A DNA stretch of 34,882 nt from Aestuariivirga sp. (GTDB lineage Bacteria > Pseudomonadota > Alphaproteobacteria > Rhizobiales > Aestuariivirgaceae): contig NZ_JADCDA010000002.1 in assembly GCF_020252405.1 (NCBI RefSeq), positions 1-34,882 of the forward strand, written 5' to 3'. The position numbers and the translations under genes were made by a program. Positions 6,773 to 20,339 of the stretch are shown in pieces. Below the pieces are notes generated by a model. That model saw only the letters and a list, made by a program, of their open reading frames with translations. It did no database searches and was not told the DNA's origin. The first letter of the stretch is position 1. The number at the start of each line of letters is the position of its first letter.

Positions 6773-7130
6773 GTGAGTTCCCCAGTTTAGGACGCCGCAG
6801 ATTTAGGCCCCGATTGTGACAGTTTGTCCAGAGCGGGAAATCCCGTCATGATGGCGACATGTTGCGGGAAATGTACAACATTCAGCGGGGCATGGGCCGC
6901 GGCCGGCGGATCGACCACTCCCGGATTGCCGGAGCTGGCGCGTGCACAACTTCCCCGGTCAGGCGGCGTGCCGCACGCGGGCGTCGCCTTTCCCGCCAAC
7001 GCCCCCGGACATGGCGCTTGAGCATGATCTGGCGGCCAGGGCGGGGCGGTGAAGAAGGCTTGATCCGCCGCCGCATCGCATCCAAAGTGAGGCGGGACAT
7101 CAGACAACCGGCTTTTTGAAGGAGACGCCA
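6773..7130. other. Intergenic region between divergent transport operon and ohr
   Basis: This 358-bp stretch separates the divergently read binding-protein gene and ohr, so it must hold both promoters. Open frames on both strands are GC-driven and show no recognisable protein pattern or ribosome site. A short match to the repeat-like word GAGCATGATCT occurs near 7021-7031, too short to call. The AAGGAG at 7119-7124 is the ohr ribosome site. I see no clear OhrR-type operator. Confidence 0.4.
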
Positions 7131-7550
7131 ATGCCCATCGCCTATACTGCCCATGCCACCTCCACCGGCGGCCGCGACGGCCACGGCCGCACCGATGACG
7201 GCAAGCTCGACGTGCAGCTGTCGCTCCCTAAGGAAATGGGCGGCGACAACAAGGGCACGAACCCCGAGCAGCTCTTCGCCGTCGGCTATTCCGCCTGCTA
7301 TCTCGGCGCCATCCGCTTCGTCGCCGGCAATGAGAAGGTGACGATCGCGCCGGACGCCTCGGTCGCCGCCCATGTGGGCGTCGGCCCGCGCGAAGACGGC
7401 CGCGGCTTCGGCCTTGAAGTGGCGCTCGATGTGCACCTGCCCGGCCTCGACAAGGCCCAGGCCGAGGACATCACCGCCAAGGCCCATGTGGTGTGCCCCT
7501 ATTCCCACGCCACCAAGGGCAACATCAAGGTGACCACAAAGATCGTGTGA
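7131..7550 (+). CDS. ohr: Organic hydroperoxide resistance protein Ohr
   Basis: Ohr is a thiol-dependent peroxidase of the Ohr/OsmC family that reduces fatty-acid and other organic hydroperoxides in the cytoplasm. The 139-residue product has both catalytic cysteines in their usual contexts, C56 in GYSACYLGAI and C122 in VVCPYSHAT, plus the N-terminal GGRDGHGRTDDG segment that carries the conserved arginine. The ATG at 7131 is chosen because AAGGAG lies directly upstream; an in-frame TTG at 7116 would put that site inside the gene. It stands alone with its own terminator. OhrR, the usual MarR-type repressor, is not seen nearby. Confidence 0.95.
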   Translation: MPIAYTAHATSTGGRDGHGRTDDGKLDVQLSLPKEMGGDNKGTNPEQLFAVGYSACYLGAIRFVAGNEKVTIAPDASVAAHVGVGPREDGRGFGLEVALDVHLPGLDKAQAEDITAKAHVVCPYSHATKGNIKVTTKIV

Positions 7551-7608: not shown

Positions 7609-7966
7609 TGGGGGTGACGCCTCCACCCATGCGGGCCGCCGCAAGGATTTTTTGGAATATAGTCCTTTTTTGATCTTGACTTTCTTCCTAGGGTATGCTA
7701 AATGTCCAACAACGCGCTTTCTGCTGATTGACATTGTGAATCTTTTTTGAGCGGCCCCGCCCTTGGCCGCGATCCGCTCCACGCCGCCGCCCCGGCGTGG
7801 GATGGGATCGCGCTTCGGGCGTAGCCCCTGCGGCAAGCAGCCTGCCTCCGTCACCTCGAAAGGTCTGCATAGCCAGCCTCGTGCTTACGCGCCCTTTGAC
7901 AGAAACCTACCCCTGCGATAGATGGTGCAATCTGCGATTGTTCCCTCATCCACATGGAGAGACGCC
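7609..7966 (+). promoter_or_regulatory. AT-rich upstream region of the ClpS/ZBD/AAA+ gene
   Basis: This stretch has no convincing gene. The part from about 7647 to 7752 is clearly more AT-rich than its surroundings and holds promoter-like words: TTGACT at 7676-7681 followed after 17 bases by TAAATG at 7699-7704, and an isolated TTGACA at 7728-7733. If the first pair is used, the AAA+ gene would have a leader of roughly 250 bases. GC-rich sequence follows from 7753. The true promoter cannot be fixed by eye. Confidence 0.35.
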
Positions 7967-9688
7967 GTGCTGACGCCCACGAAGCCGCCGGAAACACGCA
8001 CACTGATCCTGAGCAACGATCCTGAGACGCCGTGGGACGTTGTGGTGGGACTCCTCCGCACCGTTTTCGCGATGACGCCGGAAACCGCCGAGGCGGTGAC
8101 ACGCAAGGTGGACAAGGAGGGGCAGGCCTGCTTGGGCCCGTATCCCGCCAATGTTGCAGAAGCATTTCTTGCCGCGGCGATCGAGGCACGGGGATTGCAC
8201 CCGCTCAACATCCGGATCATGGCGGATGAGGATGATGGGCCGCGCTGTGCCTTTTGCGAAAGGCTCACGCCCGAGGGACAGCGGCGCTACACGCGGGGCA
8301 AGGCGACCATCTGCCAGGATTGCCTTGCCGCCGGCTACGCCCAGTTCCGGTCCGATGGCGGCGAGCGCCCCGATTTCGGCTATGCCTTCCAGGCGCTGGG
8401 CTGGCACTTTGCGGGTATCCCGAAGAACCTGATCACCTCCACGGCGCGGGGCTTTCCCGGCCACATGCGCGCCGACGTGCAGACGGCGGTGAGCAGCTGC
8501 TTTTCCAGGCCGGACAGCATCATCTACGGCGTGCTTGAAGAATACCGCTATGAGACGCTGACCTTCGCCAAGCTCATGTCGCAGAGCCGCTCGCCCTCAA
8601 TGATCGCGCAGGCGGAATACGAGGACCTCGACATCGGCAGCGGTGAGCCCGTGAAGTGCCTGAGGAATGGCTTCTGGCTGCTGCACGATAACGACATGCC
8701 CTATGTCGTGGTGCTGTCGGAACACCGCGAGTTCGACAGGGAATTGCAGGTCCGCATCGAAATCGCCGCCCCCATCGGCGAACAGGGCCGGGCGCTGACA
8801 GCACGCTGCTTCAAATTTCTTGAGGATGAGGTGGAGGCGGCACGCAGCTATCGGGGCAAAGTCCTGTCCTTTGAGGCGAAGGGCCGGTATCGCGGCCAGT
8901 CCGGCGGCATGATGGTGCATCGCCTGCCGCCGGTGTCGCGCGAGGACGTGATCCTGCCGCAGGACACGCTCGCGCTGCTGGACCGCAACCTCCTCGACTT
9001 CGTGGAAAACCGCGAGAAGCTGCGGGCGCTTGGGCAGCCGACGCGCAAGGGTATCCTGCTCTATGGCCCGCCGGGCACGGGCAAGACGCACACCATCCGC
9101 TATCTCGCTCACAATCTGCCCGGCCACACGACGCTGCTGATCACCGCGCAGCAAGTTGCAAAGCTCGACCAGTATGTGCTGCTGGCGAGGCTGCTGCAGC
9201 CTGCCATGGTGGTGATCGAGGACGTGGACCTGATCGCCCGCCAGCGCGAAAACATGAACGGCCCCTGCGAGGAGTCGATGCTTAACGAGCTGCTGAACGA
9301 GATGGACGGGCTGAAGGGCGACGCCGACATCATCTTCGTGCTCACCACCAACCGGCCGGAGCAGCTGGAGGAGGCCCTGGCCGGGCGGCCGGGCCGCGTG
9401 GACCAGGCGATCGAGATCCCGCTGCCGGACGAGGCGTGCCGCAAACGGCTCATCTTGCTTTATGGTGGCAATCTGGCACTGGGTGACCCGGTGGTGGCGG
9501 AGGCGGCGGCACGGACCCATGGCATGAGCGCCGCCTTCATCAAGGAGATGATGCGGCGCATCGCCCAGCTGACATTGGGGCGTGACGGAGGGACGGTTTC
9601 CTCAGCCGACATGGCGCATGCCATTGACGACATGCTGTTCTCCGGCGGCCGGCTGAATGCCCGGCTGCTCGGGGCGGAGACCACCTGA
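7967..9688 (+). CDS. AAA+ ATPase with N-terminal ClpS-like and ClpX-type zinc-binding domains
   Basis: The 573-residue protein joins three modules. Residues 12-85 read like the ClpS N-degron adaptor fold: LILSNDPETPWDVVV aligns with the ClpS strand and NDDYTPMEFV helix start, followed by EGQACLGPYPANVAEA, the counterpart of the ClpS QGKAVCGVYTAEVAET segment. Residues 94-119 are a C4 zinc finger with exact ClpX spacing (C94-x2-C97-x18-C116-x2-C119). About 220 residues of unassigned sequence follow. The last 225 or so residues are an AAA+ module of the FtsH/Cdc48/BCS1 class: Walker A GPPGTGKT (367-374), a Walker B reading VVIEDVD with the acidic pair in the order E418-D419, sensor TTNRPE, and arginine-finger segment GRPGR (473-477). 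I see no IGF-type ClpP-docking loop. The GTG at 7967 is preferred because GGAGA lies six bases upstream; an in-frame ATG at 7922 lacks a ribosome site and adds 15 residues. The substrate is unknown; an unfoldase or remodelling role is inferred. Confidence 0.85.
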   Translation: MLTPTKPPETRTLILSNDPETPWDVVVGLLRTVFAMTPETAEAVTRKVDKEGQACLGPYPANVAEAFLAAAIEARGLHPLNIRIMADEDDGPRCAFCERLTPEGQRRYTRGKATICQDCLAAGYAQFRSDGGERPDFGYAFQALGWHFAGIPKNLITSTARGFPGHMRADVQTAVSSCFSRPDSIIYGVLEEYRYETLTFAKLMSQSRSPSMIAQAEYEDLDIGSGEPVKCLRNGFWLLHDNDMPYVVVLSEHREFDRELQVRIEIAAPIGEQGRALTARCFKFLEDEVEAARSYRGKVLSFEAKGRYRGQSGGMMVHRLPPVSREDVILPQDTLALLDRNLLDFVENREKLRALGQPTRKGILLYGPPGTGKTHTIRYLAHNLPGHTTLLITAQQVAKLDQYVLLARLLQPAMVVIEDVDLIARQRENMNGPCEESMLNELLNEMDGLKGDADIIFVLTTNRPEQLEEALAGRPGRVDQAIEIPLPDEACRKRLILLYGGNLALGDPVVAEAAARTHGMSAAFIKEMMRRIAQLTLGRDGGTVSSADMAHAIDDMLFSGGRLNARLLGAETT

Positions 9689-10112
9689 GAGCATGCCGTT
9701 AGCGCTGAAGTAGGTTTCATTCCTTTGGATCATGCGCCGGCTTTCGCCGGGGTGACAGCTGGAAGGCGACCGGGCGCGCTCTTCCGCCTCCCACATGCGC
9801 GAACTTGACCGGCACCCTTTGACGGCCACCATTTGACGGCCACCACATGGGATGGTCGGCGCGAGCCTGACCATCATGCGTGTTGGAAGGAGAGAGTCCG
9901 CAAAGTCAGCATCGCCGGGGACGATCCCGGAGAGGACAAGATGACCAGCTGCTCCACGCCGCTTGACCTCAGTTCTGACGGGACTTGATGCGCCGGATGG
10001 GGCGAGGGACGCGACACAGGCTTCGTTTTGACCAGTTTTCCAAGGCTCCTGTTGACCCAACGCAAAGCCTGGCGAATGTGCAAGCAGCGGTTTGCGACCG
10101 GTGGGAGCTTAC
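9689..10112. other. Intergenic region with REP-like hairpin and tandem duplication
   Basis: No protein is supported in these 424 bp. Just after the AAA+ stop, 9686-9735 resembles the modular repeats elsewhere in the window (GAGCATG ... GGATCATGC), though degenerate. At 9730-9760 the words GCGCCGGC and GCCGGGGTGACAGC form a small hairpin of the type seen in many proteobacterial dispersed palindromes. A tandem duplication is described separately. GGGAG before 10113 is the ribosome site of the next gene. Confidence 0.4.
9818..9845 (+). repeat. Perfect 14-bp tandem duplication
   Basis: TTTGACGGCCACCA occurs twice in direct succession without a mismatch (9818-9831 and 9832-9845) in non-coding sequence. 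It could be a recent slippage event or a doubled binding site. Confidence 0.8.
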
Positions 10113-10388
10113 ATGATGCAAAATGGAAAATGGGAGGAGGATCTAACCCGCGCCATTGACAGGCACGTGGGCCGCCGGTTGCGGACCCTGCGAACCTCCC
10201 GGCGCCATTCGGTGCTTCGTCTGGCGACGCTGATGGGACTGCCGGCCTTTGACCTCGCTCGCATTGAGAGCGGAACACGGCGCCTCTCCATTCCCGAACT
10301 ATGGACGCTCACGCGCATATACGGGGTCGAACCCCGCTTTTTCTTCCGGTTCGACAGGCGTGGAGAAGACAAAGTTGGAAATTATTAG
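10113..10388 (+). CDS. Small XRE/Cro-type helix-turn-helix protein
   Basis: The 91-residue protein contains one XRE-like domain: RRLRTLRTSRRHSVLRLATLMGLP...LARIESGTRRLSIPEL, in which residues of about 34-55 form the helix-turn-helix and IESGTRR is the typical end of the recognition helix region. After it the GVEPRFFF segment matches the tail seen in many short XRE regulators. The ATG at 10113 has GGGAG five bases upstream; a TTG at 10092 in frame has none. It is convergent with the APC transporter gene, and its stop codon TAG is the first triplet of a dispersed repeat. Its targets are unknown; it may regulate a neighbour or be a remnant of a mobile element. Confidence 0.75.
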   Translation: MMQNGKWEEDLTRAIDRHVGRRLRTLRTSRRHSVLRLATLMGLPAFDLARIESGTRRLSIPELWTLTRIYGVEPRFFFRFDRRGEDKVGNY

Positions 10389-19311: not shown

Positions 19312-20339
19312 ATGGAGCAGGTTTTTGTCAGGGATCGTCTTGCGCTGATGCTGGAGCATTTTGGGGCGGTTGGGGATCCGCGGGAGGGCTGCAAGGTCCG
19401 GTATCCGTTGCGGGAGGTGCTGTTTTTGGTCACCTGCGCCATGATCGCGGGCTGCGACGACTATGGCGAGATTGCGGACCGGGGGTGTCTTCCACCGGGA
19501 TTTCCTCAAGGAATACGGAGATTTCTACTTTGGAACGCCGACGGAGGACTGGCTTCGGGTGGTACTGAACCGGATCGATCCGGCGCTGTTCGAGGCCTGT
19601 TTCGCGGCCTGGGCGCGATGCCTGCGGCCCGACGCCGCCGACCTGATCGCGCTGGATGGCAAGAGCCTGCGGCGCAGCGGCGAGACGGGTGCGCAGATCA
19701 GGCCAGTCCATCTGGTCTCGGCCTGGGCCTCGACCCGGCGCCTCGTGCTGGCGCAAGAGGCGGTCGAGGCCAAGGACAACGAATGCGCCGCCATGCTGGC
19801 GATCCTCGAACGCCTGACCCTCAGGGGCGCACCCATAACCATCGACGCGGTCGCGACCAATCCGACCATGGCCGCATCGAAACCCGCACCACCACTGTCA
19901 GCCTCGAGGCCGGATGGCTGACCGGCGACCGCCGCCACCCGGGGGAACACCGCTTCCCCGGCCTCAAAAGCCTCGTCCGCTCCACCACAGAGGTCGAACG
20001 CATGGGAAAATCTCGCGCGAAACCAGATACTTCATCTCCTCCGCCGCCCTGACGCCCGAACGCGCCGCAACGGCCGTCCGAAGCCACGTCCGAAGCCACT
20101 GGGGCATCGAGAGCCTCCATTGGGTCATGGACGTCGTCTTCAAGGAAGACCAGTCGCGGCTCAGGCGGGGCCACGGCACCACAAACATGGCCCTCGTCCG
20201 CCGCCTCGCCTTCAACATGCTCCGCGCCGGAAAGGGCAAGCGATCCATCAAGACTGCCCGAAAAGCCGCAGCTTGGAACACCGAAACCCTCAAGGCAATC
20301 CTGAATGAACCACCACGTTTACCTGGACTTGTGCCCTGG
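19312..20339 (+). mobile_element. Remnant of an ISAs1-family insertion sequence
   Basis: The element is defined by its transposase remains. A possible right terminal repeat is seen at 20322-20338, read inward as CAGGGCACAAGTCCAGG, but no matching left end or target duplication is visible before 19312. The left end is therefore probably lost. Boundaries are approximate. Confidence 0.5.

Follow-up and report, generated by a model that had tools for sequence, protein, structure and literature searches.

The window, by which we mean the whole 34,882-nucleotide stretch of DNA analysed here, carries at positions 7967–9688 of the plus strand a single open frame that joins an adaptor domain, a C4 finger and an ATPase module. 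The ORF listing gives a protein of 573 aa from GTG 7967, or 588 aa with ATG 7922; the GTG is aligned with the start of the closest relative (L109/L088), and a Shine–Dalgarno-like GGAGAG, read by eye at 7956–7961 (+), lies 5 nt before it. In order along the plus strand, the product features a ClpS domain (residues 22–100; 7985–8221), a C-x2-C-x18-C-x2-C finger formed by Cys109, Cys112, Cys131 and Cys134 (8246–8323), a domain that we call MID (residues 150–345; 8369–8956) and a classical AAA+ module (residues 346–588; 8957–9685). MID has no Pfam family in the Pfam scan and no match in the PDB sequence searches, and is present in all 43 aligned members of the family. The initial annotation had read adaptor, finger and motor as one chain, and the joining of the predicted ClpS, ClpX-spaced finger, MID and classical AAA+ parts in a single open frame is confirmed; related bacteria carry the same fused arrangement, which indicates a real machine rather than a chance resemblance. 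A full-length single-sequence structure model of the protein was poor (pLDDT 37).

The gene is solitary, flanked by an OsmC ORF (7116–7550) and a small helix-turn-helix ORF (10092–10388), with sigma-70 and DnaG genes further left on the other strand. At 19312–20049 the window encodes a DDE_Tnp_1-associated domain, a transposase remnant or element, which was the sole Pfam match among the scanned ORFs between about 17900 and 22000.

Relatives were collected with an alignment of MID plus the P-loop (A1) as query at E<=1e-20. One related genus of the same order gave matches in 116 of 242 genomes; the counts were 8 of 69 genomes for the family to which the window belongs, including two distant matches, 3/385 for the class (one distant) and 7/398 for the phylum. 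From the fetched loci, which are part of all matches, a second alignment (A2) of 43 members including the window was built, omitting duplicates, near-identical second copies, one outgroup, four seemingly frame-broken genes, and L087 and L090, which the ORF pattern did not pick up (L087 because of its changed Walker A). ClpS (PF02617) is matched by 39 of these 43 at E<=0.01, and 32 of the 39 ClpS-bearing members have the four cysteines, so that the architecture for which a homologue survey had been suggested proved to be conserved.

Evidence for the ClpS domain is of several kinds. The window protein scores 43.6 bits with PF02617 (residues 22–88) against a curated cut-off of 23, PDB sequence searches match the region to ClpS, and a structure prediction comparison gives it the ClpS fold, in agreement with the ClpS-like N-terminus claimed initially; shuffled controls score far below the real sequences. 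A chance resemblance, a frameshift artefact or a pseudogene fusion could draw on the few relatives that look frame-broken (L044/L053 with an internal stop; L057, L061 and L073 by eye), but this reading is refuted by the family-wide ClpS matches, the shuffled controls, the ClpS fold, the purifying selection described below and the one open frame in the window, and we give it practically no credence.

The finger has exactly the spacing of ClpX, as had been noted, and the 18 residues between the cysteine pairs are kept in 32 of the 32 four-cysteine members. The window's own finger is not listed by PF06689 either in the Pfam scan (E<=1) or in a search of its own genome (E<=10), a search that gives 75.9 bits to the ClpX-type protein of contig 72; the NCBIfam ClpX model matches the window protein at residues 105–139 only (14.3 bits against a cut-off of 359). 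Within the family, 12/43 members match PF06689 at E<=0.01, the strongest with E 1.8e-6. When a profile built from 15 of the family's fingers was compared with PDB sequences, the top four matches were all ClpX chains (best E 0.0013), followed by a thymidine kinase (E 0.011). It is thus the relatives, rather than the window's finger by itself, that support assignment to a putative ClpX-type domain.

The motor was likewise assigned correctly as a classical AAA+ module: PF00004 gives 77.2 bits against a cut-off of 21.2, and the best profile matches are FtsH, PAN and CDC48. Walker A, GPPGTGKT (residues 382–389; 9065–9088), is found in 42/43 members, the same number retaining the extended GPPGTGKTH. 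In Walker B (VVIED, residues 430–434; 9209–9223), the E-D-V-D signature has its Glu in at least 90% of members and is otherwise invariant. The RPGR of the second region of homology (residues 489–492; 9386–9397), candidate arginine fingers in a role that we take from general knowledge of AAA proteins, has invariant P490, G491 and R492 and R489 in at least 90% of members in the family alignment. Tyr418 and Leu415 are kept in 42/43 and 41/43 members where a pore loop could lie; by our own reading, a threading pore loop is uncertain because few residues separate the ITA strand from Walker B.

Inspection of the 43 members for links to a protease found no HbYX C-terminus (0/43), no HEXXH motif of M41 zinc peptidases (0/43) and no conserved IGF-type loop, [ILV]GF occurring after residue 300 in one member only (LGF in L042), which bears out the earlier remark that no ClpP-docking loop is visible. 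The ring could nevertheless feed a separate protease, ClpP or another peptidase, through contacts that are not recognised. The window genome does keep ClpS, a ClpA-size protein and a ClpX-type protein, and paired pitrilysin genes lie near three of ten viewed plasmid relatives (two at about 5 kb with groESL, one at about 1 kb). Apart from the motif counts, however, finger-bearing copies elsewhere share no common neighbour beyond the synteny of one clade in the neighbour comparison, and none of the three of their neighbours that were scanned with Pfam is a clear protease; we regard such a partnership as unlikely.

The proteins named are present in the window genome as separate genes. A canonical ClpS is retained, and just downstream, on the same contig and strand, lies an 829-aa protein with a ClpB_D2-small domain, which by size and place is ClpA; an 892-aa protein with the same domain is by size ClpB, and the contig 72 protein (436 aa) combines a ClpX finger with a ClpB_D2-small domain. 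The presence of separate ClpS, ClpA-size and ClpX-type proteins indicates that the fusion is an extra machine.

Three designs occur among the 43 aligned members: ClpS–C4–MID–AAA (A, 32 members), ClpS–MID–AAA (B, 7) and MID–AAA (C, 4). As some relatives have ClpS without the finger and others have neither, we see MID–AAA as the constant core and the recognition parts as modules. The idea of a fixed unit of adaptor, recruitment domain and motor therefore holds for most members, in which the three are joined, but not for the family as a whole, and "recruitment" by the finger is an analogy only. In a MID–AAA tree of 48 rows, B forms one group (support 99/94) within A; well-supported branches require at least three changes for A, and B has probably lost its finger; the fork that joins B to the nearest A rows has support of only 83/60. 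L047 is placed inside A (95/98), which indicates that it has lost both putative recognition parts, while the plasmid copies and L048 group apart as C (86/88). The branch leading to the outgroup L089 is very long, and no ClpS match was found in L089 or L110, the two distant MID–AAA proteins checked. Against L109, of the same genus, dN/dS is 0.23 for ClpS, 0.41 for C4, 0.17 for MID and 0.11 for AAA, indicating that all parts are under purifying selection and that the recognition parts are kept while varying faster than the motor.

In the window's genus, L087 (a 574-aa frame, +) also has ClpS without a finger and, by eye, Asp at the position of His66; its Walker A is changed to GPPGTAKT. L087 is off the tree and in no count. 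It appears to be a second finger-less line, perhaps with altered use of ATP.

The ClpS adaptor picks proteins by their first amino acid, and Glu79 and Lys84 of free ClpS contact, or dock to, ClpA. As a canonical reference we used 23 ClpS proteins of the same order, the most window-like of about 100 order-level matches, in which the positions of Asn34, Asp35, Asp36, Thr38, Pro39, His66 and Lys84 are invariant. Of the 39 fused domains, 37 retain Asp35, 37 Thr38, 35 Pro39 and 27 Asn34. The His66 position is Glu in 24, Asp in three including the window (Asp64; codon 8111–8113, +, by alignment), His in one (L109) and another residue in 11, and the Met40 gatekeeper position is highly variable, with Trp in the window and Asp, Val, Glu, Arg or Leu elsewhere. 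Of the positions that contact the substrate amino group, the window protein has Asn32 and Asp33 and carries Asp64 in place of His66, and Pro34 stands at the Asp36 position. The docking positions have changed throughout: Lys is found at the Lys84 position in 0/39 fused domains against 23/23 canonical ones, and Glu at the Glu79 position in 0/39 against 14/23 (Phe82 and Asn77, respectively, in the window). An additional adaptor on a tether, passing clients to ClpAP or blocking ClpS while its AAA+ domain is no more than regulatory, would make use of the ClpS fold, but both docking residues are lost and the motor motifs are intact across the family, which leaves this a very improbable role.

PMC8346999 describes the entrance to the E. 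coli ClpS pocket as made up of Asn34, Asp35, Thr38, Met40 and His66 (printed once as H65); the ClpS-like N-domain of human UBR1, a type-2 N-recognin, is represented there by a homology model and has Asp263 in the place of His66. PMC9810338 describes reduced substrate binding when Asp35, Asp36 and His66 of E. coli ClpS are changed together to alanine. Since His66 and Asp36 are both replaced here, N-degron binding may be weak or gone. We read the pocket as changed in activity, though not necessarily inactive, and the need for ClpA docking as probably gone; with the motor part of the chain, the Glu79 and Lys84 positions would no longer be constrained.

A rival reading, which we consider possible but tentative, goes further: the ClpS domain would have lost N-degron binding altogether to become a general protein-contact or oligomerisation module, with MID choosing the clients of an AAA+ chaperone or complex-remodelling ATPase. 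It would account for a His66 position that is changed in 38/39 fused domains, for the variable Met40 position and for the faster evolution of ClpS and C4 than of MID and AAA; ClpS-less members keep MID–AAA, and the distant relatives L089 and L110 are both without ClpS. It is harder to reconcile with the retention of the Asp35 and Thr38 positions in 37/39 domains each, with purifying selection on ClpS and with UBR1, which also has Asp at the His66 position (PMC8346999).

Our preferred reading, to which we assign a probability of roughly 55%, is an AAA+ remodeller that reads N-termini through a built-in N-recognin, acting in cis and independently of ClpA and ClpP; we infer that both client choice and unfolding are carried out by the fusion itself. 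A mechanism is proposed where the AAA+ modules form a hexamer and six tethered ClpS domains catch clients by an exposed N-terminus in an N-degron-like manner, probably with a shifted preference. Further contacts, within the oligomer or with the client, would come from the C4 finger as they do in ClpX. The ring would pull on the client or remodel it in cis, needing neither ClpA nor a ClpP of its own. We count in favour of a built-in N-recognin, besides the ClpS fold, the conserved architecture and the purifying selection, the retention of Asp35, an acidic residue at the His66 position as in UBR1, the loss of the Glu79 and Lys84 residues and the intact Walker A, Walker B and P-G-R motifs; counted against it are the replacement of His66 and Asp36, the variability at Met40 and the short pore-loop stretch. 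The existence of ClpS-less members (4/43 and further plasmid copies), which implies that the motor can work without ClpS, also weighs against it, as do L087, with no finger and a changed Walker A, and the poor full-length model.

The finger-less B copies have a setting of their own. Three of 11 B loci (L046, L093 and L100) lie beside nifN, nifX, fdxB and others, several other flanks ending at contig ends, and the L100 copy is divergent from IscA-like and NifS-like (aminotransferase V) genes. A NifA-type TGT-N10-ACA site, which occurs in 7.3% of random 800-bp stretches, is found upstream of 10 of these 11 loci (L046 and L091–L100 make up the 11), the eleventh having only 60 bp of upstream sequence; in 8/11 it is followed, 88–91 bp on, by a sigma-54-like GG-N10-GC site. 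This pair of sites occurs in 2/9 C entries, in 0/38 A entries (31 distinct genes) and in 75/4000 random windows. This first scan was anchored on the first possible start, which in finger-bearing copies may be a long way ahead of the true one. A repeat with the 43 aligned members, anchored on the ClpS motif (or the start of MID), had the same outcome: the pair in 5/7 B, 1/4 C and 0/32 A members (random windows 48/4000), and the NifA-type site alone in 7/7, 1/4 and 3/32, respectively (random windows 220/4000). As the B copies are closely related, these upstream-site counts amount to about two independent lineages; a third B lineage (L098 and L099) has tandem NifA-type sites without a sigma-54-like partner.

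Downstream of finger-less L046, L092, L093, L097 and L100 lies a gene for a 222–238 aa protein without a Pfam family (L046:6894–7607, +; L100:7512–8180, −), a possible companion.

The 39 plasmid C records that match the first 325 residues of the window protein lack both ClpS and finger. In the ten loci viewed, with flanks shown to 6 kb or 15 kb for those with nif/fix genes, six have nif/fix genes in the flank and four have none; the rhizobial copies near nif, fix or nod genes are L034, L035, L036, L112, L120 and L122. Some family copies (among L044/L053, L057, L061, L073 and L034) look frame-broken at the N-terminus or are split into two annotated ORFs. A TlpA-family gene lies near L035, L112 and L122, the last two being those with paired pitrilysin genes and groESL about 5 kb from the ATPase. 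L113 and L114 lie beside a P450/polyprenyl synthetase/fni cluster that by eye resembles one for gibberellin synthesis, and TIR-domain and caspase-family genes (L036:822–3191; L120:9830–12199), with DUF1273 in L120, occur a few kb from the plasmid ATPase, possibly as part of a defence or signalling cluster.

The NifA-type sites on B and the nif/fix setting of the plasmid relatives suggest an AAA+ ATPase with a role in symbiotic nitrogen fixation, of which no study was found in the papers searched. The window's own copy has none of the nif or NifA features of B and C. A search of its genome returned two strong NifH-family hits on contigs 59 and 60 (L039 and L040), by eye BchX- and BchL-like chlorophyllide-type reductases, and no clear nitrogenase NifH; these reductases suggest that the organism is probably phototrophic. 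A broader and rather doubtful extension of the N-recognin reading is an AAA+ machine for N-degrons that needs no ClpP: it would use the N-terminus to sort proteins or take them apart instead of degrading them, and its finger-less branch would have been drawn into the nitrogen-fixation regulon of bacterial root symbionts, where it might look after nitrogenase or further proteins of the symbiosis.

Published accounts of the bacterial N-degron pathway have ClpS as a free adaptor and end in degradation by ClpAP. If the preferred reading is true, N-terminal recognition in bacteria would also serve an end other than degradation by ClpAP, the recognin here being part of a different motor in a conserved family with no visible link to a protease. 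As a compact single-chain protein, the fusion would allow N-degron choice to be coupled to the motor, or cut from it, by simple mutations, and the natural replacement of His66 by an acidic residue, in parallel to UBR1, provides a direct test of changes to an N-degron pocket.

Compared with known systems, the fusion differs from ClpS (PF02617), a stand-alone adaptor of about 100 aa, in that its ClpS domain is part of a motor protein of 573/588 aa, has changed His66, Glu79 and Lys84 positions and is not followed by ClpA. It shares the C-x2-C-x18-C-x2-C spacing with the N-terminal zinc-binding domain of ClpX (PF06689), but its finger has ClpS ahead of it and, via MID, a classical AAA domain behind, which is not a ClpX-type motor and lacks the conserved IGF loop for ClpP. 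Walker A and RPGR are common to the classical AAA ATPases FtsH, PAN, Cdc48/p97 and BCS1; in contrast to FtsH, PAN, Cdc48 and BCS1, the fusion has a short stretch before Walker B, E-D-V-D, no HEXXH, no HbYX and a MID of its own, although we take the short stretch and the E-D-V-D to resemble BCS1. The rhizobial plasmid ATPases, annotated as 'AAA family ATPase' or 'ATP-binding protein', have MID and AAA as in the fusion (about 41–50% identity in the best 20 records, from residue 154 to residues 554–584 of the window protein) but lack ClpS and finger and often lie near nif/fix genes. UBR1 likewise carries a ClpS-like domain as part of a larger effector, and the His66 position is Asp there too (PMC8346999), but it is a ubiquitin ligase and not an ATPase; the relation that we draw is confined to that domain. 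The papers searched contained no description of a ClpS–finger–AAA+ family, in line with the initial view that no protein of this design had been characterised. The family combines known parts in a new way and adds one domain that has no Pfam family.
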